NCBI GenBank assembly: GCA_025056565.1
Contig: JANWWA010000014.1
Span: 1 to 64,000, forward strand
Direction of reading: 5' to 3'
DNA: 64,000 nucleotides
Source: Chloroherpetonaceae bacterium
GTDB lineage: Bacteria; Bacteroidota; Chlorobiia; Chlorobiales; Thermochlorobacteraceae
In this document: piece by piece, positions 5,039 through 63,552 of the stretch
Numbering within the stretch: the stretch's first letter is position 1
How the letters are laid out: each line of letters begins with the position of its first letter
Program-made: the position numbers and the translations under genes
The notes under the pieces: model-generated
Databases searched by the model: none
What the model saw: only the letters and a program-made list of their open reading frames with translations
Told to the model about the DNA's origin: nothing

Positions 5039-5980
5039 TTATTCAAACAGCGCTTCGGCAAACTTCTCTCGGTCAAAAATTTGCAGGTCATCAATTTGCT
5101 CACCGACACCGATGTATTTGACGGGGATATTCAGTTCATTTGAAATAGCAATCACGACACCGCCTTTCGCCGTGCCATCGAGCTTGGTGAGCACCAGTCC
5201 AGTAACCTCTACGACTTTGGTAAATTCTTTGGCTTGGTTCAGGGCATTTTGTCCTGTTGAGCCGTCGAGCACCAGCAGGACTTCATCAGGTGCCGACGGC
5301 AATTTCTTCTTGATTACGCGTTTGATTTTTGCCAGCTCTTCCATTAGGTGCGTTTTGTTGTGCAGGCGTCCTGCCGTATCAATCAGCACAATGTCAGTTT
5401 TCTTAGCCAGTGCAGAGCTTATTGCATCGAAGACCACCGCACTGGGGTCACCGCCTTGACCGTGCGCCACAATCGGCACGCCTGCGCGTTCTGCCCAAAT
5501 CTCGAGCTGTTCAGTCGCTGCCGCACGAAACGTATCCGCTGCAGCTATTAGCACCGACTTGCCCGCTTGCTTGTAGTGATGTGCCAGCTTGCCAATCGTT
5601 GTCGTTTTGCCCACACCATTGACGCCCACAATCATAATCACGTAGGGTTTGTGAGGAATTGGGGCATCAAAGTCTACCAGCGTGGTTTGGCGTGCATCAA
5701 TCAGCATTTTTTGAATTTCACTGCGCACCATCTTTTGCAGCTCTTCTTCGCTCATATAGCGCTCTTTTTTAGCGCGCGCTGCGACCGCTTCTACAATCTT
5801 GAGCGTGGTTTGCACGCCTACATCAGCAGCAATAAGAATTTGCTCAAGCTCTTCGAGAAATTCATCATCAATCTTAGTTTTGCCCTTTACAAGGCGCGCA
5901 ATTTTCCCTGAAAGATTTTCGCGCGTCTTTTTTAGTCCCTCCTTCAGACGAGAGAGCTTAAAGGCATCAAAGAAACCCAT
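5039..5980 (-). CDS. ftsY: Signal recognition particle receptor FtsY
   Basis: FtsY is the GTPase that docks SRP-ribosome complexes at the membrane for co-translational insertion. The 313-residue product has the NG-domain motifs of the SRP GTPases: P-loop GVNGVGKTTTIGKLA, DTFRAAATEQLE, DTAGR and TKLDGTAKGG. The four-helix N domain precedes them, and the short N-terminus lacks the long acidic A domain of E. coli FtsY. The frame is open further upstream to 6049, but MGFFDAFKLSRLKEGL at 5980 matches the usual N-terminus of short FtsY proteins, so I start there; there is no clear Shine-Dalgarno. It is transcribed divergently from thiL, and the 132 bases between them must hold both promoters. Confidence 0.96.
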   Translation of the reverse strand: MGFFDAFKLSRLKEGLKKTRENLSGKIARLVKGKTKIDDEFLEELEQILIAADVGVQTTLKIVEAVAARAKKERYMSEEELQKMVRSEIQKMLIDARQTTLVDFDAPIPHKPYVIMIVGVNGVGKTTTIGKLAHHYKQAGKSVLIAAADTFRAAATEQLEIWAERAGVPIVAHGQGGDPSAVVFDAISSALAKKTDIVLIDTAGRLHNKTHLMEELAKIKRVIKKKLPSAPDEVLLVLDGSTGQNALNQAKEFTKVVEVTGLVLTKLDGTAKGGVVIAISNELNIPVKYIGVGEQIDDLQIFDREKFAEALFE

Positions 5981-6112
5981 TGTCCGTGCCAGTTTTGTTC
6001 GCTGAACTTTATCCTCCGACCGCACTGCCAAGGCGCAGCGTTTCACCAAATTTACAAGCCTTACATCAATCAGATTTTATGTATTTTGCCAGAATATAAA
6101 ACTCCGTGCGAA

Positions 6113-7261
6113 ATGTCGTTTACACGCATTTCAGAAATTGGTGAGTTCGGGCTAATCCGCCGCTTGCACCACATTTTGCAGCCAACTGAAGCCAAATTGC
6201 CATCATTGCGCAAAGGCATTGGCGACGACTGTGCAGTGGTCGCTTTGCCAGATGGCAAGTGCCAAGTGATTTCTACTGACCTGCTTGTAGAGCATATTCA
6301 CTTCGACTTGCTTACCACGCCTCTTGAGCACTTGGGCGCAAAAGCGATTAGCGTTAATGTCTCAGATATCTGTGCAATGAATGCTCTGCCGCTTTATGCA
6401 ACTGTTTCGGTTGCCCTCTCTGGGAAAATCTCAGTTGAAATGATGGAATCGCTCTACAAGGGAATGAAAGAAGCGGCGGAGCAATACGGCATTGCCATCG
6501 TAGGTGGCGATACTTCTGCTTCGACTGCGGGTTTTGTTATCTCCGTTACAATTGTTGGTGAAGCCGATGCGGCACAGCTCACATATCGCAGCGGTGCTCG
6601 CGTTGGGGACTTTATCTGTGTAACTGGTGATTTAGGTCGCTCATATGCTGGTCTCAAAGTCCTAATGCGTGAGCGCCAAATGATGCTTGAATACTTTGCC
6701 GAAAACCCTGAGGCAGATCAAGCATCTTACAAGCCTGATATGGAAGAGTATCAAACCGCTATCAAGAAGCATCTTTTGCCTGCTGCGCGGCTCGATATTG
6801 TTCGCTTTTTTCACCAGCACTGCATTGTGCCTACATCAATGATTGACATCTCAGATGGTTTAGGCTCTGAAATCAAACATATCTGCGAACAGTCGGGCAC
6901 AGGCGCACTGCTTGAAGAAAGCAAGTTGCCTATTCTCTCCGAAGTGCGTGAAATCGCTAGTGAGTTCGAGGACGATGCTCTTGTTTATGCACTATTTGGT
7001 GGCGAGGACTATGAGCTTTGCTTTACTATTCAGCCCAGCGACTTTCCAAAGATTGAGCAAGCAAAAGACATTTATGTCATCGGTCAAATTCAGCCCAAAG
7101 AATTCGGCATTAAGCTGCGCGATATATACGGGCGTGACGAAGACCTCTCACAACACTCAGGCTTCGATCACTTTGCTGCGCCCAAACCACAAGAGCCGCA
7201 TCACAACCATTCGCACGACGAGGAACATGACCATGACGCAGAGGCCGATTCTCCCGCTTAG
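6113..7261 (+). CDS. thiL: Thiamine-monophosphate kinase ThiL with histidine-rich C-terminal tail
   Basis: ThiL phosphorylates thiamine monophosphate to thiamine diphosphate with ATP, the last step of cofactor synthesis. The 382-residue product shows the family's opening SEIGEFGLIRRL, the metal and nucleotide motifs GDDCAVV and STDLLVEHIHF, VNVSDICAMNA, VGGDTSAS, the MIDISDGLGSEIKHI helix and the GGEDYELCF motif. I chose the ATG at 6113 over an in-frame TTG at 6086 because homology begins there. The last 24 residues form an unusual tail with HHNHSHDEEHDHD, which resembles metal-binding tails of nickel or zinc handling proteins and is not part of the ThiL fold. The downstream gene converges with a gap of only 6 bases. 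Confidence 0.95.
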   Translation: MSFTRISEIGEFGLIRRLHHILQPTEAKLPSLRKGIGDDCAVVALPDGKCQVISTDLLVEHIHFDLLTTPLEHLGAKAISVNVSDICAMNALPLYATVSVALSGKISVEMMESLYKGMKEAAEQYGIAIVGGDTSASTAGFVISVTIVGEADAAQLTYRSGARVGDFICVTGDLGRSYAGLKVLMRERQMMLEYFAENPEADQASYKPDMEEYQTAIKKHLLPAARLDIVRFFHQHCIVPTSMIDISDGLGSEIKHICEQSGTGALLEESKLPILSEVREIASEFEDDALVYALFGGEDYELCFTIQPSDFPKIEQAKDIYVIGQIQPKEFGIKLRDIYGRDEDLSQHSGFDHFAAPKPQEPHHNHSHDEEHDHDAEADSPA

Positions 7262-7267
7262 GGCAAG

Positions 7268-8914
7268 CTACGGTAAAGATTCCTGCAAGGCTTTGAGCAA
7301 TACGCCTTCGCTTTCAGTCAGGTTGATTTTTTTCTCTCGGCATACCTGCGCTACCTCAGAGAGTGCGACCACTGCATTCATTGCATCAGGCACCTGACGC
7401 AATGCTTGCAAAGCTTGTTTTACAGCACCCACCTTTACCCACTCAACCGCAATCTGGCGGCACATTTCTAGTTGCTTTGTATGTGCCTTGATTTCAGGCA
7501 GCGCTGTGATGCTTGCTTGAAATGCTGAGTCTGCCTTGTCTGACTTGGCTTTGTGCAGTTCGACAGCCACAGTAGCCATGGCCTTCACTTTCACCTCTGG
7601 ATTAGCCAGATTTGCCCTTAGACTTAGTGCTTCCAGGAGCAACGGTAGCGCCTGTGCTGGCTCACCAGCTTGCGTGAAAGCAAATCCTACCTCAAATGTA
7701 GCGATTGCACGATGCTGCGGGACTTTTACGCGCTGCATTGCTAAGTTTGCCTTGCTAAACATTTTTGCTTCGGCAAAATCCGCCGCCAATTCTGCTGCGA
7801 CAGCCGACTTGTCAAAGTCCACTGGAATCGCATTAATTGCTGCAATCGCTTCATCGGCTTTGGTTTGCGCCTCGCTTGGGAAACCTGCTTGCGCCAGCAC
7901 TACCGCAACTTTGCCAATCGCCTCTGCCCGATTGGACGTGTTGCGAATTGAGCGCGCCAGTTGATACATCTGTTCAGCCACTTGCTTCGCTTCAGCACCT
8001 TGCCCTTGGCGCCCAAGCTGCACCGCAATTTGGCTAAGCACCTTCAAACGCTCTGGCACATCGGGGATAGCGGCTGCAAGAGACTGTGCCACAGTGAATT
8101 CCTTTACTTGCAAAAGCAGTTCTACCAATGCTTCACGAACCGCCATTGCACTGGCTTTGTCATTCAGCTTGCTTACACTGGCTACAGCACTCTGCAGCAC
8201 CTTTTTCCCATCGGCTTGGCGCTGCGCTTGGAAAAATTCCACTGCCAGTCTCCCAAGCTCTGTTGCTGCATCGGGGTCGTCTGGGAAGTTTTTTGGTAGC
8301 GCCAGTGCCTCTTTTAATTGATTTGCTCCTTTCCTTTCGTCGCCAAGTTTGAAGTAAAGGAGTGCCAGCTGTCCTGACAAACTAATTTGGCGCACATCGG
8401 CATCGAGGGCAGGTATAGCACTGCTCAGTGTTTCCAAGAGATTCTGTGCTTTTTCCTTCTTACCTGCTTTGAGATACGCATTAGCCAGCATGAGTTGAAG
8501 TGATGCGCTATCAAACGCATCGGAGAGGTTTTGCATCAGCACTTGAACGGTGTCTGCCATACTCATCTCAATTCCTGCCGATAGCACACGCATCAGCATG
8601 GCTGATTTTTCTGCGGCATTCGTCAGCCGATTGGTTTCTTGCAAGGCTTCTACCCAGATGGCTGCAGCTTGGATGGGTTTTTGCATCGCAAAGTGCGCTC
8701 GAGCGATGGCACTGAGCGCATTAGCCCGCCGCTCTGCTCCAACGACTTTTTCCATCAGCGCGCTGTAGCTGAACGCCAAGAGACTATCTGGCGAAATTGT
8801 CTTCGCTGCATCCGATGGGCTTTGTGGAGTTGAGGTGCTTTGTGCGGGTAGATGTGGCGATGAGATATGAAAGAGCGTAGCAATGCAGCAGCAGACAAAT
8901 AGCGTTTGCTTCAT
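7268..8914 (-). CDS. Secreted helical-repeat (TPR-like) protein
   Basis: This 548-residue protein starts with a signal peptide (MKQTLFVCCCIATLFHIS, probable cleavage after LPAQ). The rest is almost entirely alpha-helical, with repeated Ala/Leu-rich helix pairs such as AIARAHFAMQKPIQAAAIW, LANAYLKAGKKEKAQNLLE and LYFKLGDERKGANQLKEAL, the spacing expected of tetratricopeptide repeats. No catalytic motif is visible, so it is probably a periplasmic scaffold or interaction protein. The frame continues upstream to 9103, but the signal peptide fixes the start at 8914. It lies divergently from hemF and converges on thiL. I cannot assign a specific role. Confidence 0.8.
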   Translation of the reverse strand: MKQTLFVCCCIATLFHISSPHLPAQSTSTPQSPSDAAKTISPDSLLAFSYSALMEKVVGAERRANALSAIARAHFAMQKPIQAAAIWVEALQETNRLTNAAEKSAMLMRVLSAGIEMSMADTVQVLMQNLSDAFDSASLQLMLANAYLKAGKKEKAQNLLETLSSAIPALDADVRQISLSGQLALLYFKLGDERKGANQLKEALALPKNFPDDPDAATELGRLAVEFFQAQRQADGKKVLQSAVASVSKLNDKASAMAVREALVELLLQVKEFTVAQSLAAAIPDVPERLKVLSQIAVQLGRQGQGAEAKQVAEQMYQLARSIRNTSNRAEAIGKVAVVLAQAGFPSEAQTKADEAIAAINAIPVDFDKSAVAAELAADFAEAKMFSKANLAMQRVKVPQHRAIATFEVGFAFTQAGEPAQALPLLLEALSLRANLANPEVKVKAMATVAVELHKAKSDKADSAFQASITALPEIKAHTKQLEMCRQIAVEWVKVGAVKQALQALRQVPDAMNAVVALSEVAQVCREKKINLTESEGVLLKALQESLP

Positions 8915-8992
8915 TTTGCTGGAAACTGTGTTGAAAAGTTGCGTAACTTTGCAATCAACAAGCGTGCAAATTTCGTTCCTTTGCGCTTTTCT

Positions 8993-9895
8993 ATGAAAGC
9001 CCAAGTTCAAGCCTATTTTGAGTCCTTGCAAAACCACATTTCGTCTTCCATTGAAGCGATTGACGGAAAAGGCAAGTTTATTGAGGAGTGCTGGCAGCAT
9101 CACTCAGGCGGTGGCGGGCGCACCCGTGTGATGCAGGATGGTGCTATTTTTGAAAAAGGTGGCGTGAATTTTTCTGCCGTCAGTGGCATTTTGCCTGAAA
9201 AGATGGCAGCGAAGATGAACACCACCGTTTCGCCTTATTTTGCAACAGGCGTCTCCGTCGTGCTGCACCCCTACTCGCCAATGATTCCAACGGTGCATTG
9301 CAACTATCGTTACTTCGAGCAATACGACGACAACGGTGAGCTTAAAACGGCTTGGTTTGGTGGCGGCGCTGACCTTACGCCTTACTATCCCTTTCTTGAA
9401 GATATCCAGCACTTTCATCGTGTGCATAAAGCAGCCTGCGACAAACACCACCCTGACTTTTACCCGCGCTTTAAGGCATGGTGCGACGAATACTTCTTTC
9501 TGCCGCATCGTGGTGAAACCCGTGGCGTGGGCGGCATTTTCTTTGACTACCTGAAAGACAACCTTGCGGAGACCTTTGAGTTTGTGAAGTCTTGCGGTCA
9601 AGCTTTTACCGAAGCTTACTTGCCGATTGTCGAGCGCCGACGCAATGAACCGTTTGGCGAGAAAGAAAAACACTTTCAGCGCTTGCGGCGCGGACGCTAT
9701 GTGGAGTTTAATTTGGTCTATGACCGAGGCACCCTTTTTGGTTTGGAGACGCGTGGGCGCACCGAGTCTATTCTGATGTCGCTGCCCAAAGAAGCTGGCT
9801 GGGAGTATAACTACTCACCGCCACCGAACTCTCGTGAAGCTGAACTCTATAAATGCCTCGTGCCACGTGATTGGCTTTCGCTGGATCGGCTCTAA
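8993..9895 (+). CDS. hemF: Oxygen-dependent coproporphyrinogen III oxidase HemF
   Basis: HemF oxidatively decarboxylates coproporphyrinogen III to protoporphyrinogen IX using O2, feeding both haem and bacteriochlorophyll. The 300-residue product is of normal length (E. coli about 299) and carries the family signatures HHSGGGGRTRVMQDG, GGVNFSAVSG, HPYSPMIPTVHCNYRYFE, WFGGGADLTPYYP, HRGETRGVGGIFFDYL and GRYVEFNLVYDRGTLFGLETRGR. The ATG at 8993 gives the standard N-terminus; the frame is open from 8906 but that extension has no family similarity. Its presence implies that the organism makes tetrapyrroles in the presence of oxygen, which is unusual beside bch genes of Chlorobi type. Confidence 0.97.
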   Translation: MKAQVQAYFESLQNHISSSIEAIDGKGKFIEECWQHHSGGGGRTRVMQDGAIFEKGGVNFSAVSGILPEKMAAKMNTTVSPYFATGVSVVLHPYSPMIPTVHCNYRYFEQYDDNGELKTAWFGGGADLTPYYPFLEDIQHFHRVHKAACDKHHPDFYPRFKAWCDEYFFLPHRGETRGVGGIFFDYLKDNLAETFEFVKSCGQAFTEAYLPIVERRRNEPFGEKEKHFQRLRRGRYVEFNLVYDRGTLFGLETRGRTESILMSLPKEAGWEYNYSPPPNSREAELYKCLVPRDWLSLDRL

Positions 9896-10088
9896 GGCAC
9901 GACGCTACATAGAGAGCAGATGGCGTTTGCTCAGTTCGCTGCACCTGCTTCCACTTCATTGTGTTTTCCTGACTACTACTCACGATATAGCCGTGTCTTG
10001 CCGCTACAAAGTTTCTTACAAGTTGCTATCTTCCTTCATTTGTCAGCAGCCTTTGCCAAGGCGCTCAGGCAACACTTTTTAACACAAC

Positions 10089-10096
10089 AAAGGAGG
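10089..10096 (+). promoter_or_regulatory. Strong Shine-Dalgarno before the BNR-repeat protein
   Basis: AAAGGAGG lies 10 bases before the ATG at 10107. It is one of the few near-consensus ribosome-binding sites in the window and fixes the start of the following gene. Confidence 0.8.
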
Positions 10097-10106
10097 AACA
10101 CCGATT

Positions 10107-13100
10107 ATGCGCAAGCCAACCTTACTTTGGATTTTTGTATGCCTGCTCTTTGTCTGGGAGAGCATTGCGCAAACGCAGGCACAATTCAGCGAAAAGCTCT
10201 ATGATGCATTGAAGTGGCGCTCAATCGGGCCGTATCGTGGCGGCCGCTCCTGCGCCGTAACGGGCGTGGTTGGGCAGCCAAATGTGTTTTACTTCGGTGG
10301 CACAGGTGGTGGCGTTTGGAAGTCCACCGACGCTGGCGCCAGCTGGGTTAATGTCTCAGATGGCTTTTTTGGTGGCTCAATCGGTGCAGTTGCCGTGAGC
10401 GAATCCGACCCGAATGTTATCTATGTTGGTGGTGGCGAGAAAACCTTGCGCGGCAATCTCTCACACGGCTACGGCGTCTGGAAATCAACGGACGCGGGTA
10501 AAACATGGAAATCAATGGGGCTTTTGGATACGCGCCACATCTCGCGCATTCGCATTCACCCCAAGAATCCTGACCTTGTCTATGTTGCTGCAATTGGGCA
10601 CGCTTTCGGTCCAAATCCTGAGCGCGGCGTATTTCGCAGCAAAGATGGCGGTAAGACATGGGAGAAGATTCTCTTTGTCAGCAACGATGTGGGCGCGGTG
10701 GACTTAATTCTTGACCCATCTAACCCACGCATCTTATATGCCTCCACGTGGCGAGTGCGTCGCACTCCCTACAGCTTTGAGAGCGGTGGCGAAGGCTCTG
10801 GACTGTGGAAATCCACAGATGGCGGCGACACATGGGAAAACATCTCGCGCAATGAGGGTTTACCAAAAGGCACATTAGGCATTATTGGCATTGCGGTCTC
10901 ACCTGCTAACCCAGAGCGCGTGTGGGCTATCATAGAAGCCGAAGAAGGGGGCGTGTTTCGCTCCGATGACGGCGGCAAAAAGTGGCAGCGCCTTAATTCT
11001 GACCGCAGCCTACGTCAACGTGCATGGTATTACACACGCATCTACGCTGACCCCAAAAATCCTGATGTCGTCTATGTGCTCAATGTTGAGTTTCATCGTT
11101 CCAAAGATGGTGGCAAAACTTTCAGCACCATTCCTACGCCTCACGGCGACCACCACGACCTTTGGATTGACCCCAATGACCCAAATAGAATGATCATCGG
11201 TGATGATGGCGGTGCACAAGTGAGCATTGATGGTGGCGAGACTTGGACTACTTACCACAACCAACCGACCGCACAATTTTACCGTGTGACTACCGACAAC
11301 ACTTTCCCTTACCGCATCTATGTCGCACAGCAAGACAACTCTACTTTACGCATCTATCACCGCACCAGCGGCAACGCGATAACAGAGCGCGACTGGGAAG
11401 AAACCGCTGGCGGTGAGTCAGGACATATTGCCGTCGACCCGAAAGATAATGACATCGTCTACGGCGGCAGTTACGGCGGACTTTTGGAACGGCGCAATCA
11501 TCGCACAGGCGAAAGCCGCTTTATCAATGTCTATCCTGATAACCCGATGGGACACGGCGCCGAAGGAATGAAATATCGTTTCCAATGGAACTTCCCAATT
11601 TTCTTTTCTCCGCACGACCCTAATACCCTTTATGCCGCTGCAAACGTGCTTTTCAAAACCACCAACGAAGGACAGTCGTGGGAAGCAATTAGCCCTGACC
11701 TTACACGCAACGACAAGACCAAGCTTGGTCCTTCTGGCGGTCCAATTACCAAAGACAACACGGGTGTAGAGTATTACTGCACGATTTTTGCTGCGGCAGA
11801 ATCCCCTATTGAGAAAGGCGTTATCTGGTGTGGCTCCGACGACGGACTCATCCACATTACTCGCGATGGGGGCAAGACTTGGACCAATGTTACCCCAAAA
11901 GATTTGCCCGAATGGTCAATGATTAACTGCATTGACATTAGCCCACACGAGAAAGGCTGTGCTTACATTGCTGCCACACGCTACAAACTTGATGACTTTA
12001 CGCCCTACCTCTACAAAACCACTGACTACGGCAAAACTTGGAAACGCATCACAGTGGGGATTGCCAAAGACCACTTTACACGCGTCATTCGCTGCGACCC
12101 TGTGCGTAAAGGCTTGCTCTTTGCAGGCACAGAAAGTGGCGTCTACATTTCCTTCAATGATGGCGAATCGTGGCAGCCGTTTCAGCTTAACTTGCCTATT
12201 GTCCCGATTACAGATATGACCATCAAGGATTCAGATTTGATTGCCGCAACACAAGGGCGCTCGCTTTGGCTTATTGACGACATTTCGCCGCTACGTCAGC
12301 TCACAGCAGAGATTGCCAAAAAAGATGTGCATCTTTACACGCCGCGTCCCAGCGTTCGTATGGACGGCACACGTCCTGAAAAACAGCCGAAAGGCGTTGG
12401 TGAAAACTTGCAAGCAGGCGTGCTCTTTACCTTCTACCTCAAAGATGCCCCAGACTCTACAAAGCCCGTAAAGCTCGAGATTTTTGATGCCAGCGGTAAA
12501 CTTGTCCGCACTTTTTCGTCCGACGCCAAAGAGCGCAGTGATAAGCTCGAAGTCAAGCAGGGCTGCAATCGCTTCACTTGGAATATGCGCTATGCTGACG
12601 CCGCCCGCTTTGAAGGTCTGATTTTATGGGCAGGGGGCACACAAGGGCCGAAAGCCGTGCCCGGCAAGTATGAAGCCCGCCTTTCCTTTGCGGGCAAAAC
12701 CGAAAAAGTCTCCTTTGAAATCATCAAAGACCCGCGCGTGCAAGCCACCCAGAAGGACTTGGAAGAACAGTTTGAATTCCTTATCGCTATCCGCGACAAG
12801 CTTACCGAAACACACGAAACTATTAAGCAACTGCGCGACGTGCGCGAGCAACTTGCAAACCTGACCCGACGTCTCCCAAAGGACGAAGCAAAAGAGCTTC
12901 ATACAGCAGCAAAGGAGATAAGCGACAGACTCACCAAAATTGAGGAAACACTTTATCAAACCAAGAATCGCAGCTCGCAAGACCCGCTGAATTTCCCAAT
13001 TCGACTGAACAATAAACTTAGTGCCCTTGCATCGCTGGCTGGACGTGGCGATAACAAACCTACTGACCAGATGATTGTGGTGCGCAACGAACTCGTCAAG

Positions 13101-31271: not shown

Positions 31272-31739
31272 ATGGCACTTCTGGAAGTTGGTGTCAAAGC
31301 TCCCCCCTTCAAGACGATTGACCAAGACGGCAAGCCTGTTGCACTGGAAGACTTTAAGGGAAAAAAGGTCATTCTTTACTTCTATCCCAAAGACGATACA
31401 CCAGGCTGCACAAAGGAAGCCTGTGGCTTTCGCGACCGCTTCGCACAGTTCAAAAAAATGAATGTCGAGATTCTGGGCGTCAGTGTTGACGATGAGAAAA
31501 AGCACAAGAAGTTCGCAGAAAAGTATAATCTGCCCTTTCGGCTTTTGGTTGATACCGAGAAAAAGATTGTGCAAGATTATGGTGCTTGGGGCGAGAAAAG
31601 CCTCTACGGGAAAAAGTATATGGGCACAAACCGCGTGACATATCTCATTGATGAAGAAGGGCGAATTTCGCACGTTTTCCCCAAAGTCAAACCTGAAACA
31701 CACGCAGAGGAGTTACTAAAGCTTTTATCCAAAAAGTAA
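31272..31739 (+). CDS. bcp: Thioredoxin-dependent peroxiredoxin Bcp/PrxQ
   Basis: The 155-residue product is a PrxQ/Bcp enzyme. It has [37 protein letters not shown] containing the peroxidatic Cys and the nearby resolving Cys (CxxxxC), and the [15 protein letters not shown] segment. It reduces hydroperoxides with electrons from thioredoxin, fitting an oxygen-exposed organism. It is full length and starts one base after the acyl-CoA synthetase stop codon. Confidence 0.96.
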
Positions 31740-56833: not shown

Positions 56834-57859
56834 CTATGGCTCAACGGCTAAGGCACACACGAGCATACCTGCCACCAAGAAATTTTGCGCAATGCCGTTA
56901 TACCACACATCACGCGTGCGAGGTGATTGCACGAAGTGATACTGTAGCCACACCTGCGGCACGATAAAGAGCAGAATCAGCAGTCCATTCACCCACTTGC
57001 CCAGCGCAAACATATAAGCTGCAGCCAGAAGCTGCCCCGTATCGATGAGCACGGCGGCAATCACCGCTGCGTTATGCTCACCATACACAACTGGCAATGT
57101 GAAAATTCCGACGCGCTGGTCACCCTCAATTGACTTGAAATCATTGACTGTCATTGTGCCTGTGCTCGCAAAAGCATAGCAGAGCGAAATTATCACTGAC
57201 TCAGCCGAGATTGAGCCGCGATAGAGCACCTCGCCAGACAGCCATGGATAGACAAGGTATGAAAATGCTACGATGATATTGCCCCACCACAGCCGCTTTT
57301 TCAGCTTAATGGGATTGGCACTGTAGAGATGCGCATTAATGATGCCTAGAATCACATGAGCCACAATGAAGGGGTGCAACAGCCATGCTACGCCGACGGT
57401 TAGAACCGTCCAAGCCGTAATCAGAATCGTCGCATCTCTTAGAGAAATGTCGCCTGCGGGAATCGGACGCGTCGGCTCGTTGATGGCGTCAAGGTCGCGG
57501 TCGAAATAATCGTTTAGCATCTGGCAGACCCCTGTAGCCAGTGGCCCAGTGAGCAAAATGCCCAGCCAGAATTTCCAATCTGCAAGGTTTGACCAGCTAA
57601 ACACACCACTTGCTACTGCGCCGCACACAAAGCTCCAGATAACTGGAATCCAAGTAATTGGCTTGAGGAACTTCAGTAGCAGCTCAAACTTGGTGAGCTT
57701 TACGCGCTTAGCCTGTTCCTTAGGCTCGCGAATGCCAGAGGTGCGCGCAAGGCGCGTGTCGAGCGAAAAGTCTGTTTGTTCCATCTGCAACCGCCGTTTG
57801 TGCAAGAGACTTTCCTCAATGCGACGGTTCGGCTCAATGTGTTCGGGTGTCTCAGGCAT
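56834..57859 (-). CDS. bchG: Bacteriochlorophyll synthase BchG/ChlG (UbiA prenyltransferase)
   Basis: The 341-residue product is a UbiA-type membrane prenyltransferase with eight or so hydrophobic helices. The key motif NDYFDRDLDAINEPTRPIP is the Asp-rich pyrophosphate site with the chlorophyll-synthase INEPxRPIPxG ending; DFKSIEGDQRVGIFTLPVVYG is the second, DxxSIxGD-type motif of the same branch. It esterifies (bacterio)chlorophyllide with a C20 prenyl alcohol. A long charged N-terminal extension of about 55 residues precedes the first helix. It follows the redoxin gene with a 2-base gap. This is direct evidence for a phototrophic organism. Confidence 0.95.
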   Translation of the reverse strand: MPETPEHIEPNRRIEESLLHKRRLQMEQTDFSLDTRLARTSGIREPKEQAKRVKLTKFELLLKFLKPITWIPVIWSFVCGAVASGVFSWSNLADWKFWLGILLTGPLATGVCQMLNDYFDRDLDAINEPTRPIPAGDISLRDATILITAWTVLTVGVAWLLHPFIVAHVILGIINAHLYSANPIKLKKRLWWGNIIVAFSYLVYPWLSGEVLYRGSISAESVIISLCYAFASTGTMTVNDFKSIEGDQRVGIFTLPVVYGEHNAAVIAAVLIDTGQLLAAAYMFALGKWVNGLLILLFIVPQVWLQYHFVQSPRTRDVWYNGIAQNFLVAGMLVCALAVEP

Positions 57860-57861
57860 TG

Positions 57862-58416
57862 CTATCTCAGTTGAGAAATCATCGCCAGCATATCGTTGTT
57901 GTCGGGCAGCCTGAAAAATGGGCTAGGCAGCTCTAAGCCGCTGATAAACTTAAATCGGATAGCCCCATGCTTATCAAGCAAAAACTCTGCAGGCATTGGT
58001 GCTCCTAAGGCTGCACCGATGCCATATTGCTGAAAGACTTTCCACTCTGCATCACTAAGCACAGGGAAGGTGAAACCTTGCTCTTGCACGATGATTTTGG
58101 TCATCTCTACGCGCGTGGTGTTGACCATCACAACTTCTGCACCCAGCGCTTGAAATTTTGGATAGTCCTCTCGGAGTGCAAGTAGGTGTGGGTAACAGAT
58201 TGGGCAGAAAATTTTATCGGTGAAAATGCGTGTAAAGACCAGTAGCAACGGCTTGCCACGAAATTCAGACAAACGCCTCAGCTTGCCTTCGCTATCTGGC
58301 AACTCAAAGTCAGGCGCAAGGTCGCCAATCTGAAATAAATCCACGCTGGCTTTGGGGGCAAAGTTTGCAATAAACTTCTCGTGAATTGGCATGATGGAAT
58401 CAAACAGACTGGGCAT
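57862..58416 (-). CDS. AhpC/TSA-type redoxin co-transcribed with bchG
   Basis: The 184-residue product has a thioredoxin fold: LAPDFELPDSEGKLRRLSEFRGKPLLLVFTRIF, a CxxC-type site FCPICYPHLLALRED, and VVMVNTTRVEMTKIIVQ. The C-P-I-C pair fits a thiol peroxidase or disulfide reductase rather than a classical two-Cys peroxiredoxin. No signal peptide is visible. It is two bases upstream of bchG, so the two are probably one transcript; a role in protecting pigment synthesis from oxygen is inference. Confidence 0.85.
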   Translation of the reverse strand: MPSLFDSIMPIHEKFIANFAPKASVDLFQIGDLAPDFELPDSEGKLRRLSEFRGKPLLLVFTRIFTDKIFCPICYPHLLALREDYPKFQALGAEVVMVNTTRVEMTKIIVQEQGFTFPVLSDAEWKVFQQYGIGAALGAPMPAEFLLDKHGAIRFKFISGLELPSPFFRLPDNNDMLAMISQLR

Positions 58417-61320: not shown

Positions 61321-61347
61321 TTTTTGCAAGACGATTATTCGCAAAAA
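61321..61347 (+). promoter_or_regulatory. Inverted repeat overlapping the bchC start codon
   Basis: TTTTTGC (61321-61327) and GCAAAAA (61341-61347) can pair with a 13-base loop. The right arm includes the first base of the bchC ATG, so a folded leader could mask initiation. No Shine-Dalgarno is visible. The structure is seen; its role is inferred. Confidence 0.3.
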
Positions 61348-62300
61348 TGCCTAAGCGACCAAAAGCAATTATCTACCCAAAGCCTAATCGCATCAATCTG
61401 GTGGAGCTGGACATGCGTCCGCTGGGTGAAAATGATGTGAGGGTGCGCACGATTGCCACCTCTATTACGCCTGGCGTAGAGCGCTTTTTGCTTACGGGGA
61501 AGTCTATTACGCGGCGTGAGCTTCGATTCCCAGTGGTCTCTGGCAGTGAGCTACTGGGCGAAGTCGTAGAAGTCGGCGCAAATGTGGCTGATGTGGAAGT
61601 TGGCGACTATGTGTTTGTGTCCCGCGCCGATGGTTGGCTGGAAGCTATGCCTCTCTTTGGCTGCCAAGCTGAAGAGGTCATTGCCTCAGAGTCTTGTGTG
61701 ATTCCAATTCGGCGCACCCTCGAAGAAAAAGATATTCTTATCGGACTGGTCGGCTATGCCATTTCAGCGGTCAAAAAAATTAACCTCGAGGAGATTGAGC
61801 GCATTTTGATTCTTGGTTTAGGCTCGGTTGGACTGATGATTGCTGAGTATCTGACCTACAAAGGCTTTACGGCTATTGATGCTTGCGAGAAGTATCAATC
61901 GCGGGGAATGTTAGCCGCAGCCAAGGATATTGCTTTCGATATTGAGGACTTTACGTCTGACTACTTCGACCGCTACGATGTTATTGTGGAAACCACAGGG
62001 CGACTGCTTATGCTGGAGCAAGCTACCAAGCTCCTGAAACCGCATGGCAAATTTTTGCTGGTCGGTAACTATGAAGTTATGAAGCTCGACTACCGCCTTA
62101 TTCAAGACAAAGAGCCTATCCTGATTAGCTCTATTCAGACCACCGATGATGACCTGTTTGAAGCCAAGTATCTTTTGTCCGAAGATGCTCTGGATGTTGA
62201 GAAGTTTCTAACGCACCGCTTTCCAGTAGCCGACTATGAGCGTGCCTTTGATGTCGCGCTTAACCGTGCTGACGCAATCAAGACCATTCTGACTTGGTAG
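61347..62300 (+). CDS. bchC: Bacteriochlorophyllide dehydrogenase BchC
   Basis: The 317-residue product is an MDR-type dehydrogenase with the BchC features: SITPGVERFLLTGKSI at the N-terminus, FPVVSGSELLGEVVEVG, VSRADGWLEAMPLFGCQAEEVIA, and the Rossmann motif ILILGLGSVGLMIAEYL. BchC oxidises the 3-hydroxyethyl group of the chlorin intermediate to acetyl on the way to bacteriochlorophyll a. It is on the opposite strand about 3.5 kb from bchG, with the redoxin, DUF2256, unknown and VWA genes between. It supports bacteriochlorophyll a synthesis in this genome. Confidence 0.93.
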   Translation: MPKRPKAIIYPKPNRINLVELDMRPLGENDVRVRTIATSITPGVERFLLTGKSITRRELRFPVVSGSELLGEVVEVGANVADVEVGDYVFVSRADGWLEAMPLFGCQAEEVIASESCVIPIRRTLEEKDILIGLVGYAISAVKKINLEEIERILILGLGSVGLMIAEYLTYKGFTAIDACEKYQSRGMLAAAKDIAFDIEDFTSDYFDRYDVIVETTGRLLMLEQATKLLKPHGKFLLVGNYEVMKLDYRLIQDKEPILISSIQTTDDDLFEAKYLLSEDALDVEKFLTHRFPVADYERAFDVALNRADAIKTILTW

Positions 62301-62388: not shown

Positions 62389-63552
62389 ATGAACACGAGC
62401 CGAACTTTTTCGCCATTGCTGCGCGCCACTTGGGCAATGCTCTTTTGCATTGCGACAAACGCCTTTGCACAAAGCAGCACACCAACTACGGTTGTTACGA
62501 CGGCTGTGCCATTTCTTCTCATCAGCCCTGACTCGCGTGCCGCTGGAATGGGCGATGCAAACGTCGCTATCGCCGACAATGCCAGCGCTGTCTTCTGGAA
62601 CCCTGCTGGCTTGGGATTTCAGAAGGGTCTTGATGTAAATCTTACTTACTCAAATTGGCTCCCTGCTTTCAACGCCGACCTTTTCTACAATTTCCTTACA
62701 GGCAAATACTATGTGCCGGGCTGGGGCACATTTGGGCTAAGCGTGATTTACCTCAACTTAGGCGAGAGCCGTATCACTAATGCACAGGGTGAAGATCTGG
62801 GTGCATTTCGCAGTTATGAGTTCGCCATTGGACTCCACTATGGCGTCAAAGTTACGCCTGACCTTTCATTAGGCACTTCAATTCGCTACATCAATAGCTC
62901 GCTTTCACCAGCTAATGTGCAGGTTGGTAATGAACGCAGTGCTGGACAAGGCAACAGTGTCTCGTTTGATGTGGCTGCCCTTTGGCGACCGCAACTGGGC
63001 GGCTGGCTGTCAGACCGCCTAAGCTTTGGCCTGAATATCTCAAATATCGGCCCAGCTATGACATATGTTGATGCGGCGCAAGCCGACCCCTTGCCGACTA
63101 ACTTTCGCGCTGGTCTTGCCTTTCGATTGCTCAACGATGACTACAATAAGATGACCATCGCCGCTGACTTTAGCCGATTGCTTGTGCGTCGCACCGTCGA
63201 GTTTGTTCAGCGTGGCGATACCACTGTGCCCGTTGTGAAGACCGATAATGTCTTTCAAGCGCTTATCACCTCTTGGGGAGCAGAAGCCCTGCTGCGCACT
63301 TTTACCACAGGTGTTGGCGTTGAATACTGGTATGGGAAGCCTTCTCTACTGGCTTTGCGCGCAGGCTACTTTCACGAAGACCAACGAGCTGGCGGTCGCC
63401 AGTTCCTTACCTTCGGAGCAGGTCTACGCTACTCTTCGTTTGGGGTCGACTTCAGTTATCTGCAAGCCATTGAGCAGAATCATCCCCTTGCTGGCACTGT
63501 GCGCCTATCGCTGGTACTTAACTTTCCAACATTAGGCGTATCGCGGCAATAG
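62389..63552 (+). CDS. porV: PorV-type outer-membrane protein (type IX secretion)
   Basis: The 387-residue product has a signal peptide (LLRATWAMLFCIATNAFAQ) and the PorV/PorQ barrel opening FLLISPDSRAAGMGDANVAIADNASAVFWNPAGLGF, followed by alternating strands to the C-terminus. PorV is the shuttle or scaffold for cargo at the type IX translocon. A terminator follows and then a secreted M6-like protease gene, a plausible type IX substrate. Confidence 0.9.
   Translation: MNTSRTFSPLLRATWAMLFCIATNAFAQSSTPTTVVTTAVPFLLISPDSRAAGMGDANVAIADNASAVFWNPAGLGFQKGLDVNLTYSNWLPAFNADLFYNFLTGKYYVPGWGTFGLSVIYLNLGESRITNAQGEDLGAFRSYEFAIGLHYGVKVTPDLSLGTSIRYINSSLSPANVQVGNERSAGQGNSVSFDVAALWRPQLGGWLSDRLSFGLNISNIGPAMTYVDAAQADPLPTNFRAGLAFRLLNDDYNKMTIAADFSRLLVRRTVEFVQRGDTTVPVVKTDNVFQALITSWGAEALLRTFTTGVGVEYWYGKPSLLALRAGYFHEDQRAGGRQFLTFGAGLRYSSFGVDFSYLQAIEQNHPLAGTVRLSLVLNFPTLGVSRQ

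Follow-up and report, generated by a model that had tools for sequence, protein, structure and literature searches.

The hemF locus and its genome

The stretch of DNA analysed here (the window) is 64,000 nucleotides long and comprises positions 1-64000 of contig C14 (84,843 bp), in a genome of 2.92 Mb and 75 contigs whose completeness is rated 100% (G000, hereafter the source genome). The features on which the analysis draws are as follows.

5039..6049, minus strand: ftsY, neighbour of hemF, in the same order in GBChlB
6086..7261, plus strand: thiL, neighbour of hemF, in the same order in GBChlB
7268..9103, minus strand: 611-aa ORF that diverges from hemF and is without an NCBIfam match at E 1e-20
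8993..9895, plus strand: hemF, oxygen-dependent coproporphyrinogen III oxidase, 300 aa, ATG start, with profile and structure matches
31272..31739, plus strand: Bcp/PrxQ thiol peroxidase (179.1 bits, cut-off 140)
56834..57859, minus strand: bchG, (bacterio)chlorophyll synthase (NF005742, 421.6 bits, cut-off 313)
57862..58416, minus strand: AhpC/TSA-family redoxin, upstream of and adjoining bchG
61347..62300, plus strand: bchC-like dehydrogenase (full-length match to TIGR01202 at 152.5 bits, short of the 291.25 cut-off)

The plus-strand ORF at 8906-9895 contains a protein of 300 residues that starts at the ATG at 8993. The first-pass annotation had called it an oxygen-dependent HemF, and by profiles, structures and conserved histidines it is an intact and ordinary one. 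The NF003727 profile for oxygen-dependent coproporphyrinogen oxidase matches it with 414 bits (cut-off 297) and PF01218 with 437.3 bits (cut-off 31.8), and phmmer paired it with nine different HemF/CPOX sequences of solved structure (E-values of 1.6e-95 to 1.5e-64), the best of which spans residues 4-295. Among 83 HemF rows, a set that includes six duplicates of other rows, 81 of the 300 positions are identical in at least 97%, and these positions include the four family histidines, His92, His102, His142 and His172. Measured against the HemF/CPOX family (PF01218, NF003727), the protein is full-length, lies above the curated cut-offs, keeps its histidines and is itself unremarkable; only the group that hosts it is unusual. 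On sequence grounds the hemF product is a normal HemF that extends a known family to an unusual host, and it is presumably active and dependent on O2 in the source genome, where a profile search found a single HemF.

The source genome was placed in a sample of 98 genomes of the class Chlorobiia, made up of nine genomes of its own family (f1), 86 classical green sulfur bacteria (f2), G087 and G088 (f3), and G089 (f4). Within f1, the source genome shares a genus (g1) with G096 and G097. G096 is Ca. Thermochlorobacter aerophilum OS (PHFL01000071.1), counted as a different species, and GBChlB (G090) belongs to the same family. Both are aerobic photoheterotrophic Chlorobiales, and the window HemF is 84% and 74% identical to their respective copies. 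Searches for HemF, HemN, AcsF and BchE covered all 98 genomes, those for BchM and BciB 15 genomes, those for PF00148, BchH and BchD 13 genomes, and that for pscA nine. FmoA, as well as BchI and BchJ (by NCBIfam models), was sought in the source genome only, and BchL with an NCBIfam model in the source genome and by tblastn in G096, G097, G087, G088 and G025.

The order ftsY, thiL, hemF is common to the source genome and GBChlB, and in the window the 611-aa ORF lies between thiL and hemF. As listed, this ORF overlaps the start of hemF, and its true start probably lies inside the ORF. In G096, by contrast, hemF stands beside half a bchH: in both G096 and G097 the bchH is split, and hemF shares a strand with its C-terminal half and sits next to this half on the downstream side. 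The hemF of G089 (L008:593-1501) overlaps a gene (L008:1474-2865) for protoporphyrinogen oxidase (TIGR00562, 256.3 bits against a cut-off of 97.85), which takes the next step of the pathway after HemF. In G094 and G097 hemF is in two pieces, which in G097 lie in two frames. Scans for sigma-70 promoters and terminators around hemF gave about the same yield as shuffled sequence.

The first-pass annotation had further placed bchG and bchC in the window and had read HemF, Bcp and the redoxin linked to bchG as pointing to an aerobic phototroph of the Thermochlorobacter type. The bchG call is sound and the bchC call is so in part, its gene being BchC-like with a score under the cut-off; the proposed lineage proved right to the level of genus, although Bcp and the redoxin are no evidence of aerobic life. 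An earlier account of this lineage as aerobic and phototrophic, the founding paper, is reportedly that of Liu and colleagues from 2012, and such a life for the Thermochlorobacter lineage is thus not new. It is already in print (PMC4161750). The reaction-centre genes named in the same annotation are also present in the source genome, as one FmoA (659 bits) and a pscA-like gene. The latter is a 767-aa frame that PF00223 matches weakly (27.7 bits, cut-off 23.3) and no NCBIfam model matches, which we read as a putative PscA; PF00223 was found in eight of the nine genomes of the family, G096 being the one without it. A superoxide dismutase gene adjoins fmoA (L209:8229-8834 and 9252-10358, G000:C5), and its best NCBIfam match, at 284.4 bits, is under the model cut-off of 348. 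Lack of nitrogen fixation, a criterion of the Ca. Thermochlorobacter lineage, was found by PF00148 search in the source genome as well, which has no NifD or NifK because all five PF00148 matches are Bch proteins (BchN, BchB, BchY and two BchZ pieces). Downstream of the bchC-like gene, at 62389-63552 of the window, is a gene for the type IX secretion protein PorV (283.6 bits, cut-off 250).

Tetrapyrrole enzymes across the Chlorobiia

HemF occurs in 10 of the 98 Chlorobiia genomes, namely all nine of f1 and the single f4 genome, and in none of the 86 classical green sulfur bacteria or the two f3 genomes. The HemN of classical green sulfur bacteria carries out the same reaction, but is a radical-SAM, O2-independent enzyme of another family. 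It is over its cut-off in 77 of 86 f2 genomes and both f3 genomes, as opposed to one of nine f1 genomes (G091) and not the f4 genome, leaving nine of the ten HemF-bearing Chlorobiales without it. The contrast with classical green sulfur bacteria drawn from the window alone is borne out by these counts, with the qualification that nine f2 genomes, some near-complete, also have no HemN over the cut-off. G091, whose HemN (L287:2918-4315) scores 418 bits, is the only HemF-bearing genome to have HemN too, and O2 dependence at this step therefore need not hold for every member. Since the source genome has no HemN over the cut-off, HemF is the only coproporphyrinogen oxidase recognised in it.

Further down the pathway, the same ten genomes show a second gap. 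BchE (TIGR02026) is over its cut-off in 74 of 86 f2 genomes and both f3 genomes, and in none of the nine f1 genomes or the f4 genome. Among the 15 genomes searched, BchM (TIGR02021) is over its cut-off in three of three f2 and two of two f3 genomes, and again in none of f1 (0/9) or f4 (0/1); each of the nine f1 genomes has matches to the BchM profile of at most about 50 bits, which are weak methyltransferase matches only. AcsF (TIGR02029) was found in none of the 98 genomes, with a Synechococcus control detected, and passages of a 2026 paper likewise give AcsF as absent from Chlorobi (PMC13025772). BchE, BchM (over cut-off) and AcsF are absent from all ten HemF genomes, five of which are at 99-100% completeness, which makes assembly loss an unlikely cause. 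Single absences mean little, as 12 of the 86 f2 genomes, some near-complete, have no BchE over the cut-off, and because the ten HemF genomes are kin, the BchM and cyclase gap may be a single loss.

Much of the remaining pathway is kept. The source genome retains BchH/D/I, BchN/B/L, BchY/Z, BchG and a BciB-like protein, with BchI, BchN, BchB and BchL over their cut-offs. BchD is over its cut-off in all 13 genomes searched, and forms of BchH together with BchD are kept in all ten HemF genomes, BchH being partial in G089 and G094. In the PF00148 search of 13 genomes, BchN and BchB were present in the three g1 genomes, G087, G088 and G025, and were not found in the seven HemF genomes outside g1. 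Six of these seven (G089, G090, G091, G092, G093 and G095) have BchY and BchZ only, and G094 (81% complete) has only part of BchZ. The g1 genomes keep BchL as well as BchN and BchB, and their BchN looks inherited, as it shares 71-72% identity with both f3 copies and 66% with that of G025.

Members of PF04432, to which the 8-vinyl reductase BciB belongs, were found in all ten HemF genomes and both f3 genomes, and in none of three f2 genomes. The member in the source genome matched no NCBIfam model and is 56% identical to the copy in G087, which we take to be Chloroherpeton thalassium; from the family and this identity we read the PF04432 protein of the HemF genomes as a probable BciB. The BciB of Chloroherpeton thalassium has been shown to be an 8-vinyl reductase, according to a passage of PMC7242693.

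BchH is present in more than one form. The source genome differs from G096 and GBChlB in carrying both a full-length and a split BchH, in which the N half corresponds to TIGR02025 positions 2-796 and the C half to positions 799-1271, on different contigs:

G000:C12 (L203:15748-18168) and G000:C3 (L207:9511-10971): halves of the split BchH, with the break near position 797 of 1271 in the profile

Both halves occur in five genomes (G000, G090, G091, G096 and G097), and the BchH search found no full-length BchH in G090, G096 or G097. The N half of G096 is in two frames, that of G089 lies at a contig end, and G094 has only a C part of the full-length type. The full-length BchH of the source genome shares no more than 34-36% identity with the bchH copies that adjoin bchM in G025, G087 and G088, but 59-64% with six other BchH paralogues of these genomes. 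As it resembles the other paralogues, a bchE-bchM-bchH set may have been lost; in G025 bchE, bchM and a bchH are consecutive, while in G087 bchE lies far from bchM-bchH.

The bchNBL region of the source genome holds several further genes. PuhE, a gene of purple-bacterial photosynthesis clusters, lies at L203:4316-5200 on G000:C12 (TIGR03055, 184.8 bits against 164.05). Three PUCC-family MFS transporters flank bchNBL (L202:14482-15831, L203:3-1181 and L203:1856-3196), as does BchJ (TIGR02019, 147 bits), and a TonB-dependent receptor lies upstream.

Readings of the pathway

The simplest and most ordinary reading is that an aerobic phototroph swapped the radical-SAM HemN for HemF. HemF would convert coproporphyrinogen III into protoporphyrinogen IX by O2-dependent decarboxylation, for both heme and bacteriochlorophyll, and would be a trait of the Thermochlorobacter clade, the aerobic phototrophic branch of the Chlorobiales. 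A wider change appears to accompany it, in which the radical-SAM enzymes HemN (nine of ten genomes) and BchE (ten of ten) have gone missing. We put the probability that HemF here is a normal enzyme, a clade trait and part of a wider loss of radical-SAM enzymes at about 0.87, judging from sequence comparisons. HemF is ordinary, yet it marks a branch of the Chlorobiales that has seemingly been rebuilt in its tetrapyrrole synthesis for life with oxygen, and in the same ten genomes no known enzyme for either of two successive steps of chlorophyll synthesis scores above its cut-off.

That BchM and the two known cyclases are all missing together is out of the ordinary, and leaves two explanations, other enzymes or the uptake of precursors. 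We infer that the BchM and cyclase steps would be carried out by enzymes other than the known ones, probably non-homologous to them, and the retention of the BciB-like protein, BchD and a form of BchH favours such enzymes over uptake. A fuller version of this proposal, on which we are evenly divided, is that the HemF-bearing Chlorobiales may make bacteriochlorophyll without BchM, BchE and AcsF, through a third kind of E-ring cyclase (probably dependent on O2, as HemF is) and a methyltransferase other than BchM. This solution would perhaps have arisen in, or be shared with, the phototrophic Anaerolineae; BchXYZ or another enzyme would replace BchLNB in most genera, and the Mg-chelatase H subunit would be made as two proteins in some.

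Precursor uptake would mean that these bacteria make no chlorophyllide de novo, but take up chlorophyllide, pheophorbide or protochlorophyllide from the cyanobacteria of the mat and finish it with BchXYZ, BchC and BchG, where Mg-chelatase could re-insert Mg into pheophorbide. Salvage of this kind would account for BchM and the cyclase being lost together, along with BchNB in most genera, in keeping with the ten of ten genomes without BchM, BchE and AcsF, the seven outside g1 in which BchN/B were not found, and the three PUCC-family transporters and TonB-dependent receptor beside bchNBL in the source genome. We nevertheless consider it unlikely. A salvager of chlorophyll a needs no 8-vinyl reductase, its substrate being already 8-ethyl, so the BciB-like protein kept in all ten genomes fits synthesis through divinyl intermediates and makes it less likely that chlorophyll a salvage is the main explanation; forms of BchH with BchD are likewise kept in all ten, BchI in the source genome, and BchN, BchB and BchL in the g1 genomes.

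For the HemF step, an O2-only route has to be reconciled with the daily cycle of the mats. In the abstract of the 2012 paper by Liu and colleagues, the photosynthetic apparatus is said to be assembled mainly at night, as the mats lose oxygen, a timing hard to square with an O2-only route unless precursor synthesis takes place in daytime. HemF might therefore not be the sole route, and an unrecognised O2-independent coproporphyrinogen oxidase could cover the anoxic nights that the abstract of PMC11788075 describes for mats, much as HemF and HemN are both found in G091. The source genome argues against this, with two HemN-like matches that are both under the cut-off; the one of the two that was scanned is HemW (TIGR00539, 279 bits against 205.4; as HemN only 134.9 bits). 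We regard a second oxidase of this kind as quite improbable.

BchM, BchE or AcsF, and HemN could also be present in forms too divergent for the profiles, or have been lost in assembly gaps: the genomes are drafts, some near-complete f2 genomes are among the 12 without BchE and the nine without HemN over cut-off, and many methyltransferases resemble BchM, whose profile has weak matches in all nine f1 genomes. However, BchE, BchM and AcsF are missing from every one of the ten, including the five at 99-100% completeness, and the BchM scores of the two f3 genomes are 246 and 256 bits and their BchE scores 769 and 776 bits, so that vertical orthologues should be visible. Divergence or gaps are accordingly a very improbable cause.

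The window HemF is 68-85% identical to those of complete clade members, and its next relative, from an Acidobacteria MAG, is 60% identical. A first tree (quick ML) used 77 of 93 rows (80 scan loci, 12 genome loci and the window), leaving out six duplicates, six pieces shorter than 251 residues, which include both pieces of G094 and both of G097, and four rows with a stop. A second tree of 80 rows added the three rows whose stop is C-terminal, including L077, and left out L079 (early stop). In both trees a single branch sets the eight Chlorobiales rows apart, with SH-aLRT values of 100 (77 rows) and 92 (80 rows), and the phylogenetic check proposed with the first-pass annotation thus rules against contamination. 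That hemF is a contaminant of the assembly or a recent transfer into it, as its absence from every f2 and f3 genome of the set might suggest, has a negligible chance of being true and is rejected, given its clade-wide distribution, the grouping in both trees, a native composition (G+C of 0.509 against 0.499 for the window), the neighbours shared with GBChlB, and the bchG and bchC-like genes that its contig also carries. A transfer long ago, into the clade ancestor, is likely. The trees single out no donor, because in the 77-row tree the Acidobacteriota, Gemmatimonadota and Myxococcota rows that adjoin the Chlorobiales group are on long branches, and in the 80-row tree L077, a Bacteroidota MAG row from outside the Chlorobiales, is on a very long one.

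Published parallels and candidate genes

Phototrophic Anaerolineae without bchM, bchE, bchLNB and acsF are described in passages of Ward et al. (2018, PMC5826079) and of the Roseilinea paper (PMC8446752), where the proposed explanations are promiscuous homologues or other proteins (PMC5826079) and uncharacterised or multifunctional enzymes (PMC8446752). Section 6 of Ward and Shih (2021, PMC7842958) names only Anaerolineae as being without BchLNB; Thermochlorobacter, bchE and acsF are absent from the text of that paper, and its tables may still note a Chlorobiales case. The Thermochlorobacter passages of PMC9342728, PMC9560492, PMC9318685, PMC5972617 and PMC6832021, and those of PMC5459899, PMC11788075, PMC8245765 and PMC8781829, make no mention of hemF, bchM or cyclase. 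By title and start of abstract, none of the matches listed in a survey that did not include the founding 2012 paper reports HemF or a BchM/cyclase gap in Chlorobiales.

In the Anaerolineae (Ca. Roseilinea), bchM, bchE and acsF are absent while Mg-chelatase and late bch genes are kept, and the same holds for the HemF Chlorobiales. Their absence of bchLNB is matched for BchN/B by the seven HemF genomes outside g1, but not by g1 and with it the source genome, where BchNBL is kept. The HemF Chlorobiales also belong to another phylum and have a type I reaction centre with FMO. The pathway around HemF is thus a variant, in the Chlorobiales, of a gap known from the Anaerolineae. If these bacteria make pigment, the gap exists in two phyla with different types of reaction centre, and the existence of a new cyclase becomes testable.

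Replacement genes near bch loci were sought by reciprocal-best clustering of ORFs from stretches of G000, G096, G097, G090, G091 and G093, where the loci differ by genome and the shared families were annotated in part only; among families shared by four or more genomes, no obvious methyltransferase or oxygenase was seen by eye. Two ORFs near bchNBL (436 and 359 aa), rejected as replacements, have no Pfam match. Among the loci compared their kin are confined to g1, in G096 for the 436-aa ORF and in G096 and G097 for the 359-aa ORF, which is lipoprotein-like by eye. A weak candidate for a BchM replacement is the generic class I methyltransferase at L285:5149-6030, the best BchM-profile match of the source genome (48.9 bits), whose kin are found 2-3 kb away from bciB in G093, G094 and G095, though it is not itself so placed in the source genome.

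Small membrane-like ORFs at L202:10317-10691, L254:8521-8991, L252:10529-10954 and L253:10002-10547 share a similar N-terminal stretch by eye, and are found next to bchE, between paralogous bchH genes or upstream of bchNBL. Of these, L202 and L254 were scanned and gave no Pfam match, and by tblastn the L202 ORF has kin in G096, in G097 and, weakly, at a locus of G088.
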